Positions 3,353 to 16,641 of a stretch of 64,000 nucleotides of DNA are shown here, piece by piece. Every line of letters starts with the position of its first letter. The stretch's first letter is position 1. Where the stretch lies: contig NZ_CP058579.1 in assembly GCF_013402875.1 (NCBI RefSeq), positions 3,224,001-3,288,000 of the forward strand, written 5' to 3'. A model generated the notes under the pieces. It was not told where the DNA came from. It saw nothing but the letters and a program-made list of their open reading frames with translations, and ran no database searches. Source of the DNA: Halorarum salinum (GTDB lineage Archaea; Halobacteriota; Halobacteria; Halobacteriales; Haloferacaceae). The translations under genes were made by a program, and so were the position numbers.

Positions 3353-3384
3353 GCGACCAACTCGAATCTGGAGTCGGGCAGTGA
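3349..3384 (+). CDS. Possible 11-codon coupling ORF before the integrase
   Basis: GTG 3349 overlaps the upstream TGA, reads 11 codons and ends at TGA 3382-3384, which in turn overlaps the integrase GTG (3381). A purine-rich GGGGGGTGG lies at 3332-3340. The arrangement keeps the stop/start-overlap chain unbroken into the integrase, so it may be a translational coupling peptide rather than a functional protein. It is too short for any composition test. Confidence 0.3.
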   Translation: MSDQLESGVGQ

Positions 3385-4403
3385 CCGATCTTACGCCGAT
3401 GACGCCGGGCGCCGCGATGGATCTCTACCTCGAGCACCGTCGCGACGAGGTCGTTGCCGAGACCCTCCGGTCACACGAGGCGCGGATCTCGAAGTTCGTC
3501 GAGTGGTGCGACGCAGAAGGAATCACCAATATAAACGACCTTGACGGGCGGACGCTCCACGCGTTCCGAGTCCACCGTCGTGAGGAGGCTGGCCTGAAGC
3601 CCGTGACCCTCCAGGGGCAACTCTCGACGTTGCGCCAGTTCCTCCGCGTGTGCGCGGCGATGGACGCCGTCCCGGAGAACCTTCACGAGAAGATCCTCCT
3701 TCCGACCGTTGGGAAGGGCCAAGGGACGGACGACACGCAGCTCCCCGCTGGGCGCGCAAAGGCAATTCTCGAATACCTCGGTACGTATGAATACGCCAGC
3801 GTTCAGCACGTCACACTGCTGCTCGCCTGGCGGACGTCCGCCCGACGAGGTGGCCTCCGCGCGCTCGACCTTGGAGACTTCGACCAGGAGGACGATGCGC
3901 TCGAATTCCGGCACCGGCCCGCGACCGACACGCCGCTGAAAAACGGCGAGTGGGGCGAGCGGGATGTTGCTCTCCTGAAGGGCGTAGCTGACGTCCTTCG
4001 GGACTACATCAACGGGCCTCGCCACACCGTCCAGGACGAGCACGGACGCGCCCCCCTAATCACTACCCAGCGTGGGCGGCCGTCCGTATCGACGATCCAG
4101 TCCTGGGTTTACCGCGTAACCCGACCCTGCGTGATCGGCGAGCCCTGCCCCCACGATCGCGACCCTGACACGTGCGAGGCAATGCGGTCCGACCTCGCGA
4201 GCAAGTGCCCGTCGTCGCGGAGTCCGCACCAGGTCCGGACGGGTTCGGTAACGACGTTTCTCGACGAGGGGACGCCGAAGGCGATTCTCAGTGACCGAGT
4301 AGACATGACGGAGGACGTAATGGACGAACACTACGACCAGGGGACGAAGCGCGAGAAGATGCACCGCCGGCAGGAGTACCTCCGCGGGGGAGACGGCTCA
4401 TGA
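3381..4403 (+). CDS. Tyrosine recombinase / phage-type integrase
   Basis: 340 residues. The N-terminal SAM-like core-binding domain (about 10-95) is followed by a catalytic domain. Visible catalytic signatures are Arg155 in TSARRGGLRALDL, the HxxR box His283-Arg286 in SPHQVRTGSV, and Tyr318 in VMDEHYDQGTKREKM. The region 255-280 carries several cysteines (CPHDRDPDTCEAM...CPSS) between the Arg and HxxR boxes, a feature of haloarchaeal integrases. It is the last large gene of the operon and should catalyse site-specific insertion and excision of the element. No tRNA gene was seen beside it, so the attachment site is not identified. Confidence 0.9.
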   Translation: MTDLTPMTPGAAMDLYLEHRRDEVVAETLRSHEARISKFVEWCDAEGITNINDLDGRTLHAFRVHRREEAGLKPVTLQGQLSTLRQFLRVCAAMDAVPENLHEKILLPTVGKGQGTDDTQLPAGRAKAILEYLGTYEYASVQHVTLLLAWRTSARRGGLRALDLGDFDQEDDALEFRHRPATDTPLKNGEWGERDVALLKGVADVLRDYINGPRHTVQDEHGRAPLITTQRGRPSVSTIQSWVYRVTRPCVIGEPCPHDRDPDTCEAMRSDLASKCPSSRSPHQVRTGSVTTFLDEGTPKAILSDRVDMTEDVMDEHYDQGTKREKMHRRQEYLRGGDGS

Positions 4404-5291: not shown

Positions 5292-5873
5292 GTGAGCATC
5301 GATAACTTTCCCCGGACGCTGGTCACCTTCACCCTAGCGGGCATTATGCTGTTAGTTTACGTCGTTAATCCGGCAATCGCGGAATTGTCCTACATCTTCC
5401 TTGCACCGTGGATGCACTCGGGATGGCCGCACTTTTGGAATAATCTGTTCATCTTTGTCCCGTTAGGAGCGTGGGTTGAGAACAGAGTTGGATGGTTGAC
5501 CTTCCTCACGTTCGCCATTATGATTCCCTACCTCGCACTCTCTGCACCCGTCGCTTTCGGATACGGTGAGTTATCGAGAGGAGCGAGTGGATTGACGATG
5601 GCAGTATCGGGGTACATTGTTCCTGTCTCGTTAACGAACCTCTCCGAGCGCTTAGACTCGATCAGTCTTGAGAGACGGGAGCTTTTCGTCTGGGGGTTGA
5701 AACTCCTAATTGTACTGTACCTGGCTGCAGATGCGTATATGACTGTGAAGCGGTTTTTCGGATTCGAACCACGTCCAGATGGCGTGGCAGTGTCGGCTCA
5801 CTTCACAGGCTTGGTCACTGGTTTACTTTGGTTTGCGTGGAGGGGAGGGAGGCACGGGATTTTCGACGCATAG
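5292..5873 (+). CDS. Rhomboid-family intramembrane serine protease
   Basis: 193 residues with six predicted membrane segments. Rhomboid hallmarks are visible: HxxxxHxxxN in HSGWPHFWNN (His42, His47, Asn51), the nucleophile motif GASG with Ser99, and the catalytic His170 in SAHFTGLVTGLLW. Rhomboids cut helical membrane proteins within the bilayer. The start is GTG 5292. Base composition is clearly lower in G+C than the core genes, suggesting recent acquisition. It faces the DUF5305/signal-peptidase operon convergently, so a link in membrane protein processing is possible but unproven. Confidence 0.85.
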   Translation: MSIDNFPRTLVTFTLAGIMLLVYVVNPAIAELSYIFLAPWMHSGWPHFWNNLFIFVPLGAWVENRVGWLTFLTFAIMIPYLALSAPVAFGYGELSRGASGLTMAVSGYIVPVSLTNLSERLDSISLERRELFVWGLKLLIVLYLAADAYMTVKRFFGFEPRPDGVAVSAHFTGLVTGLLWFAWRGGRHGIFDA

Positions 5874-5989: not shown

Positions 5990-7093
5990 TCACGGTGGAT
6001 TTCCGTCCGACGAACCATTCTGATCGCGCTCATCACCCTTCGCGGATTCATCCGTTGTCATAGGCTCCGACGTCCGTTCCGGCCACGGAGTTCCCTCACC
6101 GTAGTAATAGACGATCTCTCCGTCGATCACCGCATACGCGTCCTTACCGAAGTCCTGGATCACACGCTTTCCCATATCGATTCCGATATCGACGAGATCC
6201 TCGAGGGAGTCAACTTGCACGTACTGACTACCGATCCCTGGTGATAACGTCCCTTCAGAGATCCATTCGGCGTACCGGTTCTGGTGGATTTGGTCTTCGA
6301 CTGCTCCCCACTGTTCCCGTCGACTGTACAGGCCCCCGACGACTCCAGCGATAAGAAGCGCAGTTACGCCTATTCCAGCGGGAATCGCGTACGCGGACGT
6401 GTCTCGTGTGGGAACCACGACTTCCCGCGTTTCCGGTGTACTTTCCGTTCGTTCGAGAGTGAGCGGGTCGATCTCGTACGAACGCTCGGAGAGTTGGAGT
6501 GGAGTCGTCCGGTTGAGGGTCCCTGAATACTGACTCGTTTCGTACGATGTCCTCACGCGGACGAACACGCGGAGTGAGCCATCTCTCCCGAGTTCGTTTT
6601 CGATGGGTCTTACCTGCTCCTTGAGCTGAGGGACGTTGATCTTCGTCGACGTCGTCACTGACCCATTTGATGTCGACTTCCGACTCCGCTCGAGGTCGCG
6701 AGTTTCCTGCCAGAACGCATCCTCATTGTGCGCAGCCTGCATCACGAGTTCGACGTGCTGATCCACTTGGACCGGCTGATCGGCAGGTACAGTCGTCTCT
6801 AAAGTGAGCGTGAGGTTCGGAGTAGCGGCTATGAGATAGATCGGCTGGTTCTCCACACGTTCGCCGGAACGATACAGCGCACTATCCCCAGTGACGACAG
6901 CACTCGGGTGGAGCGTCGACCGAATCGTTTGCTCGTTCGTCTGATCCGTGACGGTGGTCGTCGGCGGATGTGCGTATATCCAACCTGCCCCTCCGATGAA
7001 CAGGACTCCGATCACGGCGAGAACGGCTGCCAACTCTCGGCCGTAGTCGGAAATGAATAGTTTCGTTCGCGCGAGTCCGGGGTATCGGATCAT
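5990..7093 (-). CDS. DUF5305-like membrane protein linked to signal peptidase
   Basis: 367 residues, one TM near the N-terminus (about 21-40), a large extracytoplasmic beta-rich domain (about 50-230) with NxT/S sequons, a second TM (235-256), and a ~100-residue cytoplasmic tail ending in a charged low-complexity stretch. This layout fits DUF5305 proteins encoded beside SipW-like signal peptidases in haloarchaea. It starts at an ATG overlapping the upstream gene's stop by 4 nt and is the last gene of the four-gene operon. It may anchor or export the operon's secreted products; this is inference. The family assignment is from memory of its architecture. Confidence 0.65.
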   Translation of the reverse strand: MIRYPGLARTKLFISDYGRELAAVLAVIGVLFIGGAGWIYAHPPTTTVTDQTNEQTIRSTLHPSAVVTGDSALYRSGERVENQPIYLIAATPNLTLTLETTVPADQPVQVDQHVELVMQAAHNEDAFWQETRDLERSRKSTSNGSVTTSTKINVPQLKEQVRPIENELGRDGSLRVFVRVRTSYETSQYSGTLNRTTPLQLSERSYEIDPLTLERTESTPETREVVVPTRDTSAYAIPAGIGVTALLIAGVVGGLYSRREQWGAVEDQIHQNRYAEWISEGTLSPGIGSQYVQVDSLEDLVDIGIDMGKRVIQDFGKDAYAVIDGEIVYYYGEGTPWPERTSEPMTTDESAKGDERDQNGSSDGNPP

Positions 7094-7596
7094 TCGTTCA
7101 CCGGGGCACTCCTGTCTGGTGCCGTCACTTCAAGTCCCGGCGCGGACGCATCGACATAAAAATACACGGTTTCATCCGTGAGAGAAGCGTCGTCCGGAAT
7201 CTCGATTTGCACCGTCCGTTCTGTCCCCTGCGTGAGCGTGAACGAGGTGGCGTTACCGACCACCGTTCCATCGACGACGAGGTCGCCGATGTGTTCGGAG
7301 TCATCGCGAAGGCCCACGGTGATCGTAACGTCTCGCCCCAGCCGATTGGTCACGGTCACGAGGGAGCTAGTCGAGTTGATGAAGACTGATTGAGCAACAT
7401 CGAGGGAGTGAGCACCGAGCTCGTCCGAAGTCACGTCTACGGCCGAATTTCGCGGTGCGTCTACGGTCGTAAAGGACGCCGTCGCCATCCCCCCGCTTCC
7501 CATCACGACGGACATCACGAGGACGCCACTCGCCAGCATGATCAACGCCGGGAACGTCGCGTTCGATCCGCGGCGACGGGAACGACGTTTCCTCAT
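7090..7596 (-). CDS. Small secreted protein with SipW-type signal peptide
   Basis: 168 residues. A strongly basic N-terminus (MRKRRSRRRGSNA) precedes a single hydrophobic stretch (about 17-38) and then MATASFTTVDAPRNSAVDV, resembling SipW-dependent signal peptides where the mature chain begins with an aromatic/beta segment. The rest is Val/Thr-rich and beta-stranded (VTVTNRLGRDVTITVGL) with glycosylation-type sequons. Start and stop overlap both neighbours by 4 nt. By position it could be the minor or anchoring subunit of a fibre whose main subunit is the DUF1102-like protein. Function is not demonstrated. Confidence 0.6.
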   Translation of the reverse strand: MRKRRSRRRGSNATFPALIMLASGVLVMSVVMGSGGMATASFTTVDAPRNSAVDVTSDELGAHSLDVAQSVFINSTSSLVTVTNRLGRDVTITVGLRDDSEHIGDLVVDGTVVGNATSFTLTQGTERTVQIEIPDDASLTDETVYFYVDASAPGLEVTAPDRSAPVNE

Positions 7597-8594
7597 CGAT
7601 CCCTCCCCCCGAGATGGGATCGCCGTCGAGACCGCGATGACCGAAGCGGTTGCTGGCCGTCGAGAAAGAGCGCATACAGGATGAAGAACGGCATGAACAA
7701 CACCCCGACCGTCGTAAACGACGCAACTACGGGGTGAACGGAATGCAGCGTCTGGATCGTGCGTTCGGGAAGAACCGCCGGATATCGATAGACGGTGATG
7801 CTCGTCGTGTGTGCCCCACGTTCTGTCGGACCAGGAATGAACACCTCCGCAGAGATAGACGACGCGTTGGCGGTCTGATTCTGGATCGTCATTCCATCAG
7901 TGCTCACCATTCGGTGGGTGAACGGAGTGGATGGAACGGCGATCAACACGCTCTCCGTCGTGTTCTCCCCAATCGAGAGGGTATTTTGACCACCAACTGT
8001 GCCATCAACGGCCACGTACGTCAGGTCGTGACTGATCGCGCCGACCAGCAGAACCACTATCCCTCCAAAGATGGCCATGGCAAACAACGGGAGAAGTACG
8101 TCGTTCACTCGTACGAAGGATCGGTCGGGGCGAGCGCTTGAGCCGAATAGCAGGCCCCCTGCTATTAGGAGGCCAGCGACACCCAGAACGGTGAGACGGT
8201 GCGTGGTCACCAGTGAGATGAGTGTTCCGAGTGCCGGAATGGTAACCGGATCACCGTTTACGGTGAGAACCGCACCCACAACGTCCTCGCGTTGCACGTG
8301 CTGATACCCGGCGGCCTGATCCGTGACGTCGTTGTTGTCGCCCTGTGTGAGCAATCCGGCGTCAGAGCGTCCAACGACACGGTGTGTGACGTGCTCTTCC
8401 CGCTCGGAAGACCAGAACACGACGATATCTCGCTGCTCGATGGTCCCCTCCGGAACGACGATGTACCCGTCGTTCTGCCCGATCGTGGGTTCCATACTAT
8501 CAGAATATACGTACGACACTTGGACCGGGGACGCCGGCGTCGTGACTAAGATAGCTACAAAAACGGCGATTATGATGACGATACGTCTAAGCAC
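7593..8594 (-). CDS. SipW-like signal peptidase I (archaeal/ER type)
   Basis: 333 residues. An N-terminal TM (about 4-20) is followed by YSDSMEPTIG with the nucleophile Ser33. The general base His71 in HVTHRVVG replaces the bacterial Lys, as in archaeal and ER peptidases, and the acidic box is GDNNDVTD. Three further TM segments follow, including one near the C-terminus, making it longer than a minimal SPase. It should remove signal peptides at the outer membrane face. Flanked by two genes for proteins with SipW-type signals and overlapping the next gene, it is probably dedicated to them rather than being the housekeeping enzyme. Confidence 0.85.
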   Translation of the reverse strand: MLRRIVIIIAVFVAILVTTPASPVQVSYVYSDSMEPTIGQNDGYIVVPEGTIEQRDIVVFWSSEREEHVTHRVVGRSDAGLLTQGDNNDVTDQAAGYQHVQREDVVGAVLTVNGDPVTIPALGTLISLVTTHRLTVLGVAGLLIAGGLLFGSSARPDRSFVRVNDVLLPLFAMAIFGGIVVLLVGAISHDLTYVAVDGTVGGQNTLSIGENTTESVLIAVPSTPFTHRMVSTDGMTIQNQTANASSISAEVFIPGPTERGAHTTSITVYRYPAVLPERTIQTLHSVHPVVASFTTVGVLFMPFFILYALFLDGQQPLRSSRSRRRSHLGGRDR

Positions 8595-8610
8595 GAATCC
8601 TGGATTCCGC

Positions 8611-9165
8611 TTAGGCCGAGATCGTCAGCGTCCCGGAGAGATCGGAATTGCTGGTGAGCCCGTGGGTGTCCACGACGATGACGACGTAGTACGTATCACC
8701 AGAGGCGACACCATTCAGGTTGACCGCACCACTCTCCTCGCTCACGGTAGTCTGGAGCACGCCTGTGTCATCGTACACCTGGAACTGGAGGTTCTCGTCG
8801 TCGTCCTCGCTGTCGGTACCACTGTATTCGAAGGTGAAGTCGTGGCCTTCGGCGTCGAGGTTGGTGAGGTTGAACGCGTACGATTCGTTCGCGTTGGCCT
8901 GGTCACCGAGCTCGAAGTGAGCCGCTGTGTTGACACCGCTTGCGCTTCCGTTCGTGAAGTCGATCTCGAGGGCACCGGATGAATTCTGGTAGACGAGGTC
9001 ACCAGAGTTCCCGTCCTGAAGTGCGATGAGACCCGTATCGTCGTTCACGACGTTGACGTTCGCAGCACGATCGACACTCCCGCTCGTATACGCACTCGCC
9101 GCGAACGCGCCGGATGTGACGACAAGCATGACAGCAATCAAACCAATCTTGATTTTGGTTGACAT
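8611..9165 (-). CDS. DUF1102-like secreted protein (possible TasA-like fibre subunit)
   Basis: About 184 residues from ATG 9163-9165. The longer frame to 9210 runs through the TATA box, so it is rejected. The N-terminus KIKIGLIAVMLVVTSGAFAA is a clear signal peptide. The mature chain is acidic and beta-rich, with repeated Asn/Asp-Gly turns and several NxS/T sequons, ending LSGTLTISA. DUF1102 proteins are secreted archaeal proteins often found next to SipW-like peptidases. It is the first gene of the operon, 16 nt upstream of the peptidase, under a strong near-leaderless promoter, as expected for an abundant structural protein. Confidence 0.7.
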   Translation of the reverse strand: MSTKIKIGLIAVMLVVTSGAFAASAYTSGSVDRAANVNVVNDDTGLIALQDGNSGDLVYQNSSGALEIDFTNGSASGVNTAAHFELGDQANANESYAFNLTNLDAEGHDFTFEYSGTDSEDDDENLQFQVYDDTGVLQTTVSEESGAVNLNGVASGDTYYVVIVVDTHGLTSNSDLSGTLTISA

Positions 9166-9190
9166 TGCGTTCTGCAGAAGTGTCTTGTAA

Positions 9191-9200
9191 TATAAATACC
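9191..9200 (-). promoter_or_regulatory. TATA box of the DUF1102/SipW operon
   Basis: The plus strand reads TATAAATACC (minus GGTATTTATA). It is centred 30 bp before the ATG at 9165, so the transcript should be almost leaderless. The whole upstream stretch is A+T rich against the genome background. Confidence 0.7.
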
Positions 9201-9606: not shown

Positions 9607-10335
9607 ATGACTAGATCCCCGCAACTCGCCGTGCTCGCGGTCGATGACGACCCCGATTTTGGGGAGTTAACCGCGTTGTCACTCGCGCAGGAGGATTCTC
9701 GTTTCCAGGTTCAAACGACGACGAACGCGATCGATGCGCTCGAACTGTTCGCAGAATACGATGTCGACTGCATCGTCTGCGACCGCGAGATGCCGGAGAT
9801 GTCGGGACTCGACCTCCTCCGGGACGTCCGCACACTGGACGAACACATTCCGTTCATCCTCTTCGCCGGCCGCGGAAGGGAGGAGATCGCCAGTGAAGCG
9901 ATCTCGGCAGGGGTAACGGACCATCCCCAGAAAGGGAATGGCTCTGACCAGTACACGCCTCTGGCGGATCGTATTCGCGATGGCGCTGGTTCGTTTCGGG
10001 TCGAACTCGAGCGCCAACTCACCATTGACTGGGTGACGGACGCGCTCATCGAGGTGGACCCGGGCTGGGAGATCACAGCCGTCGACAGTAAAGCTGAAGC
10101 GATCTTCGAGATGGACGCAGACGAGATGCTCGGCCGTAACCTCTGGGACGTGTTCCCGAAGGCGGTCGAGACGGATCGGTACGATGCGTATCGCGAAGTG
10201 GGGAAGACCAACGAACCGACGACGGTCGAGGGTTACGACGAGGAGACTCGTCTTTGGTCAGAGAATCACGTGTATCCTGAATCCAGTGGTGGGCTCTCCT
10301 TCTCCATCCGGGATGCGATCACACTGACGGAGTAG
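9607..10335 (+). CDS. Receiver-PAS signalling protein
   Basis: 242 residues. Residues 7-120 form a response-regulator receiver with the acidic pocket Asp13-Asp15, phosphoacceptor Asp59 (IVCDREMPEMSG) and Lys109. Residues ~135-235 are a PAS domain (TDALIEVDPGWEITAVDSKA) ending in a short tail. There is no output domain and no kinase module, so it probably relays phosphate or binds a partner, as is common in haloarchaeal signalling. It lies 15 nt upstream of a degenerate receiver-HalX protein, so the two are likely co-transcribed. Confidence 0.8.
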   Translation: MTRSPQLAVLAVDDDPDFGELTALSLAQEDSRFQVQTTTNAIDALELFAEYDVDCIVCDREMPEMSGLDLLRDVRTLDEHIPFILFAGRGREEIASEAISAGVTDHPQKGNGSDQYTPLADRIRDGAGSFRVELERQLTIDWVTDALIEVDPGWEITAVDSKAEAIFEMDADEMLGRNLWDVFPKAVETDRYDAYREVGKTNEPTTVEGYDEETRLWSENHVYPESSGGLSFSIRDAITLTE

Positions 10336-11681: not shown

Positions 11682-12161
11682 ATGGCTTCGGAGACCGTCA
11701 CCGACGTCGAGCGAAGGGGTATCACCGGACACGGATGGGTCAGTGCGGCGCTCGCGGGCATCGTGGGTGGGATCGCCTTCGGGGCGATGATGCAGCTGAT
11801 GATGCCGGACGTCCTCGAGATGGCCATTCCGAGCCTGTACGGGCTCGGGCCGGGGCTCGCGGTCGGCTGGCTCGTCCACCTGTTCCACAGCGCCGCGTTC
11901 GGGCTGGTCTATGCGGCGATCGTCCGGCTGGATGCGCTCGCCGCGTACGCCAATCGGGTCACCACGGGGGCCGGTCTCGGAGTCGCCTACGGCGTGCTCG
12001 TCTGGCTGTTCGCCGCGTCGGTCGTCATGCCGCTGTGGGTCGGCGCCGTCCTACCGATGAACCCGCCCGTGCCCGACTTCAACCCCGCGAGCCTCGTGGG
12101 CCATGCCGTCTTCGGCGTGCTCCTCGGCGCGCTCTACCCCCTCCTCGCGGCACGCGTGTGA
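11682..12161 (+). CDS. Uncharacterised four-TM membrane protein
   Basis: 159 residues with four hydrophobic helices (about 20-42, 60-85, 95-115 and 135-155), Gly/Ala-rich. The start (MASETVTDVERRGITGHGW) and HSAAFGLVYAAIVR motif match a small haloarchaeal membrane family sometimes labelled histidine kinase by mistake; it has no kinase motifs. The stop overlaps the GTG start of the decayed thioredoxin-like gene, so the two were once an operon. Function unknown. Confidence 0.7.
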   Translation: MASETVTDVERRGITGHGWVSAALAGIVGGIAFGAMMQLMMPDVLEMAIPSLYGLGPGLAVGWLVHLFHSAAFGLVYAAIVRLDALAAYANRVTTGAGLGVAYGVLVWLFAASVVMPLWVGAVLPMNPPVPDFNPASLVGHAVFGVLLGALYPLLAARV

Positions 12162-12771
12162 CTCTGGTCGAACTCGAATCGCGGGACGTACTCGACGGGG
12201 GTGAGGAAGCACCGGATTTCGAACTCCGCTGAACCGACGGCGAACGGTACGTCCTCGCGGATTTCGAGGAGTACGAAGCCGTGCTCCTCGTGTTCGTCCG
12301 TAACCACTGCCCCACGTCGCAGTCGAAGTTCGCGGAACTGAACCGACTCACGGAGGGGTACGACGAGGTAGCCGTCGTCGGTATCGATCCCGACGACCCG
12401 TCGGAGTATCCCGACGACGACGTCGAAGCGATGGTCGAGAACGTCGAAGCGGGGCGCGTTCGCTGGGACGCGTACCTTCGTGACGACGCGCAGTCCGTCG
12501 CCGCCGCATGCGGCGCGACGTGCACGCCCGATCCGTTCCTCCTGAAGAACGCCGACGGCACGTTTCGGCCGGCGTACCACGGTCGCCTCGACGACGCGCT
12601 CGTTCCGGACGAGGCGCCGACGGTGCGCGAGATGAAGGGGATCATCGATACGCTGAGGGGATCATCGATGCGCTGCTGGCGACCGGGGAGGTCGACGCGG
12701 AGTTCCGACCGTCCCGCGGCAGCTCCATCAAGTGGCGCGGCGGGAACGAACCGGAGTACCGGAACCGGTAG
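12158..12771 (+). pseudogene. Decayed thioredoxin-fold / peroxiredoxin-like gene
   Basis: GTG 12158 opens a reading (TLVELESRDVLDGGEEAPDFE) typical of a haloarchaeal thioredoxin-family protein. An in-frame TGA at 12230-12232 breaks it after 24 codons. The same frame then continues with the core (AVLLVFVRNHCPTSQSKFAE) until a 20-bp tandem duplication at 12637-12676 shifts it. The proper C-terminus (EFRPSRGSSIKWRGGNEPEY) is read in the +1 frame to 12771. Family members usually have CNHCP and RGCSIKW; here the first Cys of the former is Arg and the latter is RGSSIKW. Two frame lesions and two lost cysteines make loss of function very likely. Confidence 0.8.
12637..12676 (+). repeat. 20-bp tandem duplication causing a frameshift
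   Basis: Copies at 12637-12656 and 12657-12676 (GGGGATCATCGATACGCTGA and GGGGATCATCGATGCGCTGC) differ at two positions. Twenty bases is not a multiple of three, so the duplication moves the thioredoxin-like reading into another frame. Confidence 0.85.
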
Positions 12772-13180
12772 ACCCGTCCGAGATCGGTTTCATTCGTCAC
12801 AATCATCGATCCGGGCGGTTCGCGGACAACGTGTTAGGATCGTCGACTGAATCCTCCATCCCCGGTACGCCGTTCGTGACGGATGGCGGGTGAACAGGTG
12901 ATCGGCATCCCACGTCGTTCGACCGTACGTGGCGACTCGTGGGGCCAACCGATCTATAGCGATTCCCTCGAACACCCAGGTCTCGGCATCCATTCACGGG
13001 GAGATCGCCAGGTCGCTCGGCGAGTGTGACGCTCTACCTGCTTTAATCCGATCGACGATGGCTGCATCAGTTGCCGAGCGCATCCGCGAAGTCACCATCG
13101 GAGAGGATTCGTTACCGATCTGCGTGATGAGATACTCGCCGTCAGCGATTCAACACGATGTGCAGTCGATCAGCGACGAA
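12772..13180. other. Intergenic region without a clear gene
   Basis: About 410 nt between the decayed thioredoxin-like gene and the 3' end of the kinase gene. Frames on both strands (for example 12929-13207 plus and 12790-12993 minus) lack conserved-looking motifs. It contains one copy of a 20-bp sequence repeated beyond the kinase gene. Nothing else recognised. Confidence 0.4.
12923..12942. repeat. 20-bp direct repeat, copy 1 (beyond kinase 3' end)
   Basis: CCGTACGTGGCGACTCGTGG is identical to positions 15770-15789. The two copies flank the histidine kinase gene. Confidence 0.7.
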
Positions 13181-15622
13181 CTAATCGGACGTCGTCCGTG
13201 CGGGTAGCGAGAACGAGAACGTCGTCCCGTCACCCGGCTTCGAGTCGACCCAAATCTCGCCTCCATGGCGCTCGACGATTCGCTTGCACATCGCGAGCCC
13301 GATCCCCGTTCCGGCGTGCTCGTCGCGACTGTGAAGGCGTTGGAAGATCTCGAAGATGCGATCCCGGTGATCGAGGTCGATGCCGATCCCCTCGTCGTTA
13401 ACCGATAGGATCCACTCGCCGCCGACTCGTTCGGTCGACACATGGACTCGGGGTGGAGCATCGCCGCTGTATTCGATGGCGTTCTCCAGGATGTTCTGGA
13501 ACACTTGGTGGAGTTGGATGGCGTCGCCCTCGACCGTAGGCAACTCTTCGCTCGTGATTCGGGCGTCCTGTTCCTCGATCCGTATCTGAAGATCGGCTAG
13601 GACGTCCTCGAGGACGGCATCCAGGTCGACCGGTTCGAACGGGTCCCCCTCCGTTTCAACCCGGGAGTATTCGAGCAGAGCGTCGATCATCTCGCTCATC
13701 CTGTCGGCACCATCCACGGCGAACTCGATGAACTCCCTCCCGTCCTCGTCGAGTGCGTCGGCGTAGCGACGCTCGATCAACTGGAGGTAGCTCGACACCA
13801 TCCGGAGTGGCTCCTGGAGGTCGTGGGAGGCGGCGTACGCGAACTGTTCGAGGCGCTCGTTCGAGTCCTGCAACTTACGCTGGAAGGTCTTCCGTTCGGT
13901 GACGTCCCGCGCCACGCCTACCATCCGCGTCGAGCCGTCCTCGTCCCGGATGGGCCGACCCGGAACTTCGATCCACCGCTCTTCCCCGTCCCGATCGATA
14001 CGGATCTCGTCGGACTTCGGCTCGCCGGTTTCGAGTGATTCCCTGATCCCCTCTTCGACCTGCTTTCGGTCGTCCGGATGGACGATCTCGATGAAGTCAT
14101 CCCAGTTCTCGACGGAGGTCCCGTACAACGACTCCGCCGAGGGATGGAACGACGTCCGATTTCGGTCGACGTTCCAGTCCCAGACGATCGCATCCGTGGC
14201 GTCGAGGGCAAACTCCATCCGATCCCGGACACGCTGGAGTTCCCGTTCGCGTTCTTTTCGCTCGGTGACGTCCTGGACGGCCCCGCGGAGCGAAACGACC
14301 TCCCCGTCCTCGACGTCCGGCTCACCGATGATTCGGAGCCAGCGCACGTCGCGGCTGGGCGTTCGGAACCGACTTTCTACATCGAAGGGTTCGCCGGATC
14401 GAAGCGCCTCTTCGACGGAACGTTCGACGATCGGTCGGTCCTCATCGTGGTAGACGTCGAGAGCTTCGTGCAGTGGCGGCTCTTCGTCGGAGGAGACCTC
14501 CAGAATATCGAAGAGGTGGTCGGTCCAGAACACGCCACGCGTGTCCGGGTCGATCTCCCAACCGCCGATGTCCGCGATGCGTTCCGCCCGCTCCAGGAGA
14601 TCGTACACCCGTTCGAGCTCCCTTTCGCGCACTTTGCGTCGGGTAACGTCCTCGAAATACACGGAGAGGCCGGACTGGGAGGGGTACACCCGGACCATCG
14701 TCCAGACGTCGAGCGGCTCCGAGTAGCGCTCGAATCTCATCGGTTCCTGCGTCGTGAACGCCTCTTCAAACCGCTCGAAGAGCGGGTCCGATTCGTCGAC
14801 GTCAAACACGTCCCACGGTCTCCGACCGATGAGGTTCCTTGCCGGCTCGCCAAGGTACGCTACGGCGTGATCGTTCACGTATTCGTACCTGAACTCGTCG
14901 TCAAGCGCGTAGAAGGCGTCGCCGATTCGCTCGAACACGTCGTCGAGTTCCCGTTCAAGTTCGTCCCGCTGGCGTTGGAGCCGCTCGGCCTGTTTTTCGA
15001 GTTGCTGCTCGTACTCACGCCGATCAGTCATGTCCCGCGTGACCTTGGTGAATCCCCGGAGCGTGCCGTCGTCTCGGATGGCAGTGATCGTGACGTTCGC
15101 CCAGAAGCGCGAGCCGTCTTCCCTGACCCGCCATCCTTCGTCCTCGACGCGGCCCTCGGTCACGGCGGTTTCGAGATTTCGAGCGGGAACGCCATCATCG
15201 ACGTCGTCGTCGGTGTAGAACGTCGAGACGTGTTTGCCAACGATCCCCGCTTCGGCATAACCCTTGATCCGCTCGGCGCCGTCGTTCCAGCTGATGATTC
15301 GGCCCTCGGGATCGAGCATGAAGATGGCGTAGTCCTTGACCGCTCTCACGAAGGCCCCGAGCTGCTTGCTGGCTGCATCTTGACGACCTCTACCACCTCC
15401 CTCGGTGGTCCACCAAACTCGGATCGAACCATCGATCCGTTTGCTTTGTAATTCACCCCGTTCGGCGAGTTCCTCGAGATGACGGTGCGCTGTCTCCGGC
15501 GTACAGCTGAGGAACTCGGTGACTTCCGTGATCGACACCGGATTCGTCGGCGGCTCTAATTGGCTGAAGAATCCACGGAGATCATCGATAGACGTCCCTG
15601 GAGGTGGGTCCGAGGTTCCCAT
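13181..15622 (-). CDS. Multi-PAS sensor histidine kinase with N-terminal HTH
   Basis: 813 residues, soluble. Residues ~25-72 are a winged-helix-like segment (SITEVTEFLSCTPETAHRHL). Four PAS/PAC units follow (about 90-210, 235-345, 350-465 and 470-590). Then come HisKA with the phosphorylated His near residue 600 (ASHDLQEPLRMVSSYLQLIE) and an HATPase domain with N box (NILENAIEYS), G1 (NDEGIGID) and G2 (HAGTGIGLAMCKRI). No TM segment is visible, so it senses an internal signal such as redox or light through PAS. The promoter side (15623-15789) contains the second copy of the 20-bp repeat. No partner regulator is adjacent; the receiver-PAS protein at 9607 is a candidate partner by proximity only. 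Confidence 0.9.
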   Translation of the reverse strand: MGTSDPPPGTSIDDLRGFFSQLEPPTNPVSITEVTEFLSCTPETAHRHLEELAERGELQSKRIDGSIRVWWTTEGGGRGRQDAASKQLGAFVRAVKDYAIFMLDPEGRIISWNDGAERIKGYAEAGIVGKHVSTFYTDDDVDDGVPARNLETAVTEGRVEDEGWRVREDGSRFWANVTITAIRDDGTLRGFTKVTRDMTDRREYEQQLEKQAERLQRQRDELERELDDVFERIGDAFYALDDEFRYEYVNDHAVAYLGEPARNLIGRRPWDVFDVDESDPLFERFEEAFTTQEPMRFERYSEPLDVWTMVRVYPSQSGLSVYFEDVTRRKVRERELERVYDLLERAERIADIGGWEIDPDTRGVFWTDHLFDILEVSSDEEPPLHEALDVYHDEDRPIVERSVEEALRSGEPFDVESRFRTPSRDVRWLRIIGEPDVEDGEVVSLRGAVQDVTERKERERELQRVRDRMEFALDATDAIVWDWNVDRNRTSFHPSAESLYGTSVENWDDFIEIVHPDDRKQVEEGIRESLETGEPKSDEIRIDRDGEERWIEVPGRPIRDEDGSTRMVGVARDVTERKTFQRKLQDSNERLEQFAYAASHDLQEPLRMVSSYLQLIERRYADALDEDGREFIEFAVDGADRMSEMIDALLEYSRVETEGDPFEPVDLDAVLEDVLADLQIRIEEQDARITSEELPTVEGDAIQLHQVFQNILENAIEYSGDAPPRVHVSTERVGGEWILSVNDEGIGIDLDHRDRIFEIFQRLHSRDEHAGTGIGLAMCKRIVERHGGEIWVDSKPGDGTTFSFSLPARTTSD

Positions 15623-16209: not shown

Positions 16210-16641
16210 TCAGTTCGGCGTGCTACCTTCCGCGAGCGCCTGGGAGTTGCTCCCATCGGGTGAGGTCCAGATCACGCTCACGTCCGTCCCGTTATCGACG
16301 GGATCGAGCGTGGCGGAGCTCCCGGTGCTGATGCCCGCGTCCTCGAAGTCCTCGAATCCCGATTCGTTCGTCCCGTCGCTCAGCGTGACGTTGTTCGCGT
16401 TATCCTGGCTAATGGTGGCACCGCCCCTGTGAGTCGCCGTCACGTTGTACGAGTTCCCGCCCGTTTCGTCGTAATCGAAGTCGAAGTTCGCGTTCGGCGC
16501 GGTGTCGCCTAAACTGTTCCCGAGTCCGAGGACGAACGTCCCGATAACTGCCGCGAGAATGACCGTGATCGCGACCATGAGAATGACACCGATGACGGGT
16601 GAGACGGCGCGACCGTCCGTGAAGACCTCCGTGAGCTTCAT
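16210..16641 (-). CDS. Type IV pilin (Pilin_N / PilA-like)
   Basis: 143 residues. The N-terminus [20 protein letters not shown] is a class III signal with predicted cleavage by prepilin peptidase after Ala12. The long hydrophobic helix ([20 protein letters not shown]) is nearly identical to haloarchaeal adhesion pilins. The remaining ~110 residues are Asn/Asp/Thr-rich with several N-glycosylation sequons. Secreted subunits of this type assemble into surface adhesion pili, and the helix can also signal biofilm or planktonic state in Haloferax. A TATA box 30 bp upstream gives a near-leaderless transcript. No pilus assembly genes are present here. Confidence 0.9.

Follow-up and report, generated by a model that had tools for sequence, protein, structure and literature searches.

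A four-gene cassette in the haloarchaeon Halorarum salinum (GCF_013402875.1) very probably encodes a compact donor-strand pilus. It lies in a 64,000-nt stretch of contig NZ_CP058579.1 (positions 3,224,001 to 3,288,000), here called the window, from whose first letter all coordinates are counted. In the order of transcription, a small secreted protein, which we label P1, comes first and a SipW-like signal peptidase second; they are followed by another small secreted protein, P3, and by a membrane protein of the DUF5305 family. Our proposal is based on the gene order and its conservation, on the predicted fold of P1, on the homology of P1 with both P3 and DUF1102 proteins, and on the type of the peptidase.

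All four genes are on the minus strand under one TATA box, with 16 nt between P1 and the peptidase gene and overlaps of 4 nt at the remaining two junctions (Table 1). This order and spacing had been described in a first-pass annotation of the window, together with a TATA promoter, a near-leaderless transcript and a segment of lower G+C content, and the open reading frames (ORFs) and base composition agree with that description. The sequence TATTTATAT occurs once in the window against 0.00 copies expected, its distance from the P1 ATG fits a near-leaderless transcript, and the cassette has 58% G+C versus 69% for the window. In the copy from another genome of the same genus (L068), TATTTATATA is found at a similar distance from the P1 start. 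Proteins of the two copies are 62-80% identical, and the ratios of nonsynonymous to synonymous divergence (dN/dS) between them are 0.22 for P1, 0.17 for the peptidase, 0.08 for P3 and 0.14 for DUF5305, so all four genes are under purifying selection. Each is present as a single copy in the 4.26-Mb genome. The synonymous divergence of P1 from L068 (0.73) is clearly lower than that of DUF5305 (2.01), perhaps as a result of codon selection in a highly expressed gene.

Table 1. Features of the cassette and its promoter in the 64-kb window.
Feature	Position	Strand	Details
TATA box TATTTATAT	9190-9198	minus	~25-33 nt 5' of the P1 ATG; single copy in 64 kb
P1, secreted DUF1102/TafE-like protein, proposed main fibre subunit	8611-9165	minus	184 aa, ATG at 9165
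P1 signal peptide	9094-9165	minus	24 aa, Sec type, no twin arginine
Mature P1 N-terminus, proposed donor strand	9034-9093	minus	20 aa; from conservation and pLDDT
SipW-like ER-type signal peptidase	7593-8594	minus	333 aa; Ser33/His71; TIGR02228 over cut-off
P3, second secreted subunit, short paralogue of P1, proposed terminal subunit (tip or base)	7090-7596	minus	168 aa
DUF5305 membrane protein, proposed base anchor or peptidase assembly partner	5990-7093	minus	367 aa

The four genes are a conserved cassette. The first-pass annotation had asked whether they co-occur elsewhere, and no fewer than 24 further haloarchaeal loci have exactly the order P1-peptidase-P3-DUF5305. These are L068, L100, L105 and, among the 22 top-ranking named loci (L107-L128) of a genome scan with the cassette peptidase, 21. 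L082 and L115 lack P3 and were left out of this count, and the DUF5305 match of L110 is shortened. The hosts belong to about ten named genera (Halolamina, Halomarina, Halospeciosus, Halobellus, Haloarcula, Halorientalis, Haloferax, Halonotius, Haloquadratum and Halomicroarcula), to which several metagenome bins are added. Strong matches to the cassette P1 (at least 110 bits) are present in about 29 of 392 haloarchaeal genomes from many families, a distribution that is broad but patchy. When loci were selected by DUF5305 instead, a SipW-type peptidase accompanied it in 39 of 40, one a weak match. In the metagenome archaeon A07HN63 (L127), both the peptidase gene (8001-9094) and the DUF5305 gene (11949-13650) are broken into two ORFs, which could be either decay or an assembly error.

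Outside the haloarchaea, DUF5305 is present in other classes of the phylum, with a SipW-type peptidase within about 2 kb in approximately 14 of 16 such loci. Six of these 16 also hold several DUF1102-type proteins; the five that were scanned score 109-149 bits (cut-off 22). In one operon of DUF1102 paralogues (L201, 2695-4263), DUF1102 is fused to an integrin-beta-like VWA domain, and the product is likely a tip adhesin.

The mature P1 was modelled with AlphaFold2 using 22 orthologues as input, giving a beta sandwich with a mean predicted local distance difference test score (pLDDT) of 84 and a predicted template modelling score of 0.80. The first-pass annotation had proposed comparing the fold with known fibre proteins, and for P1 the comparison gives the expected kind of match. 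In VIA-align, the best hit is AbpA of the Pyrobaculum bundling pili (7ueg, Z 9.2), followed by the Sulfolobus threads (7pnb, Z 9.0) and the Tafi pilus of Natrinema sp. J7-2 (9p0a, Z 8.5; 137 residues, root-mean-square deviation 3.1, 19% identity). Below these, at Z of 7.8 or less, come unrelated domains along with tube-forming and cannula proteins. With Foldseek, 7pnb was the sole match below 0.001. The margin is modest, yet chance is an unlikely reason for three archaeal filament subunits to lead the matches of the predicted model. TasA was not among the 50 structure matches listed for the P1 model; AbpA is described as structurally related to TasA (PMC9674648). We also considered P1 as a type IV pilin or archaellin, which is ruled out by a beta sandwich lacking an N-terminal helix and by the matches to donor-strand filaments.

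The strands of the P1 model start at residue 23, and the first two ten-residue blocks before them have pLDDT of only 53 and 62. The first of these, mature residues 1-10, is the best conserved block of the protein (0.76) and also the least confidently placed. A segment that is conserved and disordered in the monomer is as expected of a donor strand. The aligned range of 9p0a opens at the aromatic residue equivalent to Tyr26 of P1. These observations bear on an alternative in which P1 and P3 are monomeric surface proteins, or proteins associated with the surface layer, and the peptidase and DUF5305 serve export and anchoring only, with no fibre. Such beta sandwiches are common among surface proteins, many of the Foldseek matches are generic and a fibre was not observed; however, it is hard to see what a monomer would gain from a mature N-terminus that is conserved yet disordered, and the top three structural matches are all filament subunits. 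We consider this alternative quite improbable.

The relationship of P1 to DUF1102, suggested in the first-pass annotation, was borne out by profile-profile comparison and not by a direct Pfam match. P1 stays below the gathering threshold of DUF1102 (PF06510), with no match at E<1. Conversely, hhalign aligned the P1 family with mature DUF1102 proteins over 145 columns at 97.6% probability (E 2.7e-12), against 0.05% for the control. As judged by these profiles, the homology of P1 with true DUF1102 proteins spans the full length of P1, and for this reason DUF1102 proteins, too, are probably pilins of this kind. A genome from the same family has three P1-like genes in tandem (G104:C1:82703-84286), which suggests subunit expansion.

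The P1 signal (MSTKIKIGLIAVMLVV...) has no RR. The same is true for 18 of the 22 cassette orthologues, while 4 of the 22 have it, so that a single orthologous family seems to have switched its route of export. Cleavage is predicted at AS↓AY or ASA↓Y, with an aromatic residue just past the cleavage region. The mature protein would start with AYTSG, and a start of A-F or A-Y is found in 21 of 22 orthologues. A cut in front of the invariant Ala would put the aromatic residue at P2', as in TasA. In Bacillus, TasA is cut by the dedicated SipW; it has Phe at P2', and the ordinary signal peptidase of E. coli processes such sites poorly (PMC10269814). The aromatic P2' residue would thus tie the cassette peptidase to P1 as its substrate.

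With 56.8 bits, the peptidase scores over the cut-off (51.9) of TIGR02228, the model for archaeal signal peptidase I. Its similarity to SipW, as first annotated, holds at 8.6e-9 while remaining under the cut-off of that model. Residues S33, H71, D86 and D92 are invariant among the cassette orthologues, Ser33 and His71 forming the dyad of the endoplasmic reticulum (ER) type, and an extracytoplasmic domain is predicted in the C-terminal extension. Elsewhere in the genome there is one more match to a signal peptidase, a weaker one, and the cassette peptidase is therefore probably an extra, dedicated enzyme. Its dedication to the cassette substrates follows from linkage only. The other peptidase of the host may be unable to cut P1.

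The mature parts of P1 and P3, compared by hhalign after the signal peptides were stripped, align at 97% (E 1.2e-10), against 0.1% for the DUF5305 controls. From this profile evidence P3 is a shorter paralogue of P1, with an N-terminus that appears TafC-like. Its core is shorter than that of P1, and some orthologues have additional C-terminal domains: a LamG lectin domain in Haloferax mucosum (1.7e-18) and a lamin-tail (LTD) domain in L122 (1.8e-14). The P3 of the window has no LamG or LTD domain, and its start is arginine-rich with no clear motif for twin-arginine translocation (Tat). The LamG and LTD domains of the orthologues, together with the DUF1102-VWA fusion, point to adhesive end subunits, and P3 is best read as a putative end subunit that may be adhesive in some species.

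The fourth product, already annotated as DUF5305-like, matches PF17231 with 144.3 bits (cut-off 29). Its model (pLDDT 91) has transmembrane helices at 5-41 and 233-257, with a beta domain (45-226) between them and a small C-terminal domain after the second. From this topology, the beta domain would be outside the cell and the C-terminal domain inside. A sequence search of solved structures gave only chance matches with DUF5305, and the fold matches (immunoglobulin-like, transglutaminase and arrestin domains, Z up to 8.9) are generic and were set aside as uninformative. Because its gene closes the cassette and keeps company with the peptidase, DUF5305 may act at the base of the fibre or in its assembly, which is guilt by association. 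Neither DUF1102 nor DUF5305 was mentioned in the literature that we searched.

How the subunits polymerise, how P1 and P3 share the work and what DUF5305 does are inferred, as follows. P1 would be exported by the general secretory (Sec) pathway, and the neighbouring SipW-like peptidase would trim its signal just ahead of the invariant Ala-(Phe/Tyr). The cleavage would free the conserved, flexible N-terminal strand, which could then complete the beta sandwich of an adjacent P1, joining subunits head to tail into a thin surface fibre, comparable to that of TasA in Bacillus biofilms. P3, with the same N-terminus, would cap one end of the fibre and carry a binding domain in some species, while DUF5305 may hold or start the fibre at the membrane, next to the peptidase. 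The fibre-type export module of the first-pass annotation was essentially right, and we sharpen it to a Sec-exported relative of the Tat-fimbriae (tafi), one of a family of probable donor-strand pili that extends through the phylum.

Some points weigh against a pilus of this kind. The cassette is known here from genes and predicted models. The Z of P1 (8.5-9.2) exceeds that of the next rows by just one to two units. Of the two secreted proteins, P1 is the one whose model gives the evidence of fold, and DUF5305 has no informative structural relative. Moreover, the closest named family, TafE, is called a "fimbrial adapter" at NCBI, so P1 could be a minor subunit; no second pilin-like gene of P1's kind was found in the genome.

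The surroundings of the cassette raise another possibility, that the operon encodes a fibre with which an integrated mobile element mediates adhesion or mating. A XerC-like tyrosine recombinase is encoded nearby (3381-4403, plus strand), the G+C content of the cassette is below that of the window, and its presence among haloarchaea is patchy, being missing even from one sampled species of the same genus (G016). On the other hand, the flanking genes do not accompany the cassette, including the integrase, whose relatives occur in Halopenitus loci only; cassettes of other species share the G+C content of their flanks, and the divergence of the same-genus copy L068 is that of no recent arrival. 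We regard a mobile-element fibre as unlikely, and horizontal acquisition of the cassette as a possibility. A repeat search around the cassette gave only short chance matches, with no element ends seen, and a PHROGs search returned nothing useful. In Halopenitus persicus (L101, the same region as L140), a relative of the recombinase (5e-45) is found about 4 kb from a DUF5305-peptidase pair.

Other neighbouring genes were also noted. A response regulator with a PAS domain (9607-10335, plus strand) is divergent from P1, and at the same position L068 has a short ORF (3380-3874) whose receiver start is similar, a possible hint of regulation. Convergent with the operon is a gene for a rhomboid-family protease (5292-5873, plus strand) with weak rhombosortase similarity (9.8e-8) and no relative in the other loci examined. 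The same region of lower G+C content holds a second, unrelated gene of pilus type, 7 kb away from the cassette (16210-16641, minus strand), an ORF that begins in the manner typical of archaeal type IV pilins.

On the scale of the phylum, a SipW-type peptidase and DUF5305 may be the common core for the assembly of donor-strand pili with DUF1102-, TafA- or TafE-type pilins, the four-gene cassette being the smallest working form and orthologous pilins having switched between Sec and Tat with the same peptidase and base protein. We hold the chances of this generalisation to be even. DUF1102 and DUF5305, both of unknown function, gain a testable role. A system of four genes is small enough to be rebuilt in Haloferax, where the minimum for a donor-strand pilus free of chaperone and usher could be tested, along with why pilins of this sort depend on a signal peptidase of their own.

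Among known filaments, AbpA (7UEG) and the Sulfolobus threads (7PNB) are the best structural matches of P1, at 10-11% sequence identity. The tapA-sipW-tasA operon of Bacillus subtilis shares with the cassette a dedicated ER-type peptidase, a substrate with an aromatic P2' residue, two secreted partners and, probably, the donor-strand principle, but has another gene order and no described counterpart of DUF5305. The non-haloarchaeal DUF1102 operons also have homologous subunits, a SipW-type peptidase and DUF5305 in one locus; they differ in having several DUF1102 paralogues, one of them fused to VWA, whereas P1 itself is under the Pfam threshold.

The closest comparison is with tafi (Galeva et al., iScience 2025, 28:111793, as cited in PMC12687288; structure PDB 9P0A). 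In Haloarcula argentinensis (L088), TafA, TafC, TafE and TafF are all over the NCBI cut-offs and, with a DUF7344 regulator, make a complete taf locus, in which the same SipW-type peptidase-DUF5305 pair stands beside TafC and TafA; from gene order, our guess is that DUF5305 is the gene named tafD. The subunit fold, the N-terminal motif, the TafE- and TafC-like subunits and the peptidase-DUF5305 pair are common to both systems, and the cassette could be taken for a true tafi system of diverged sequence. However, the scores are far under the NCBIfam cut-offs, with 28.6 bits for P1 against TafE (1e-6, cut-off 155) and 15.1 bits for P3 against TafC (0.009, cut-off 410). A search of the H. salinum genome found no TafA or TafF over cut-off (best E 0.129 and 0.009, respectively). 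The cassette has only four genes, with no DUF7344 regulator, its P1 signal is of Sec and not Tat type, and the P3 of the window lacks the LamG domain in which the TafC of Haloarcula argentinensis ends. A diverged true tafi system is thus very unlikely, and the cassette is a reduced relative of tafi, not a member.

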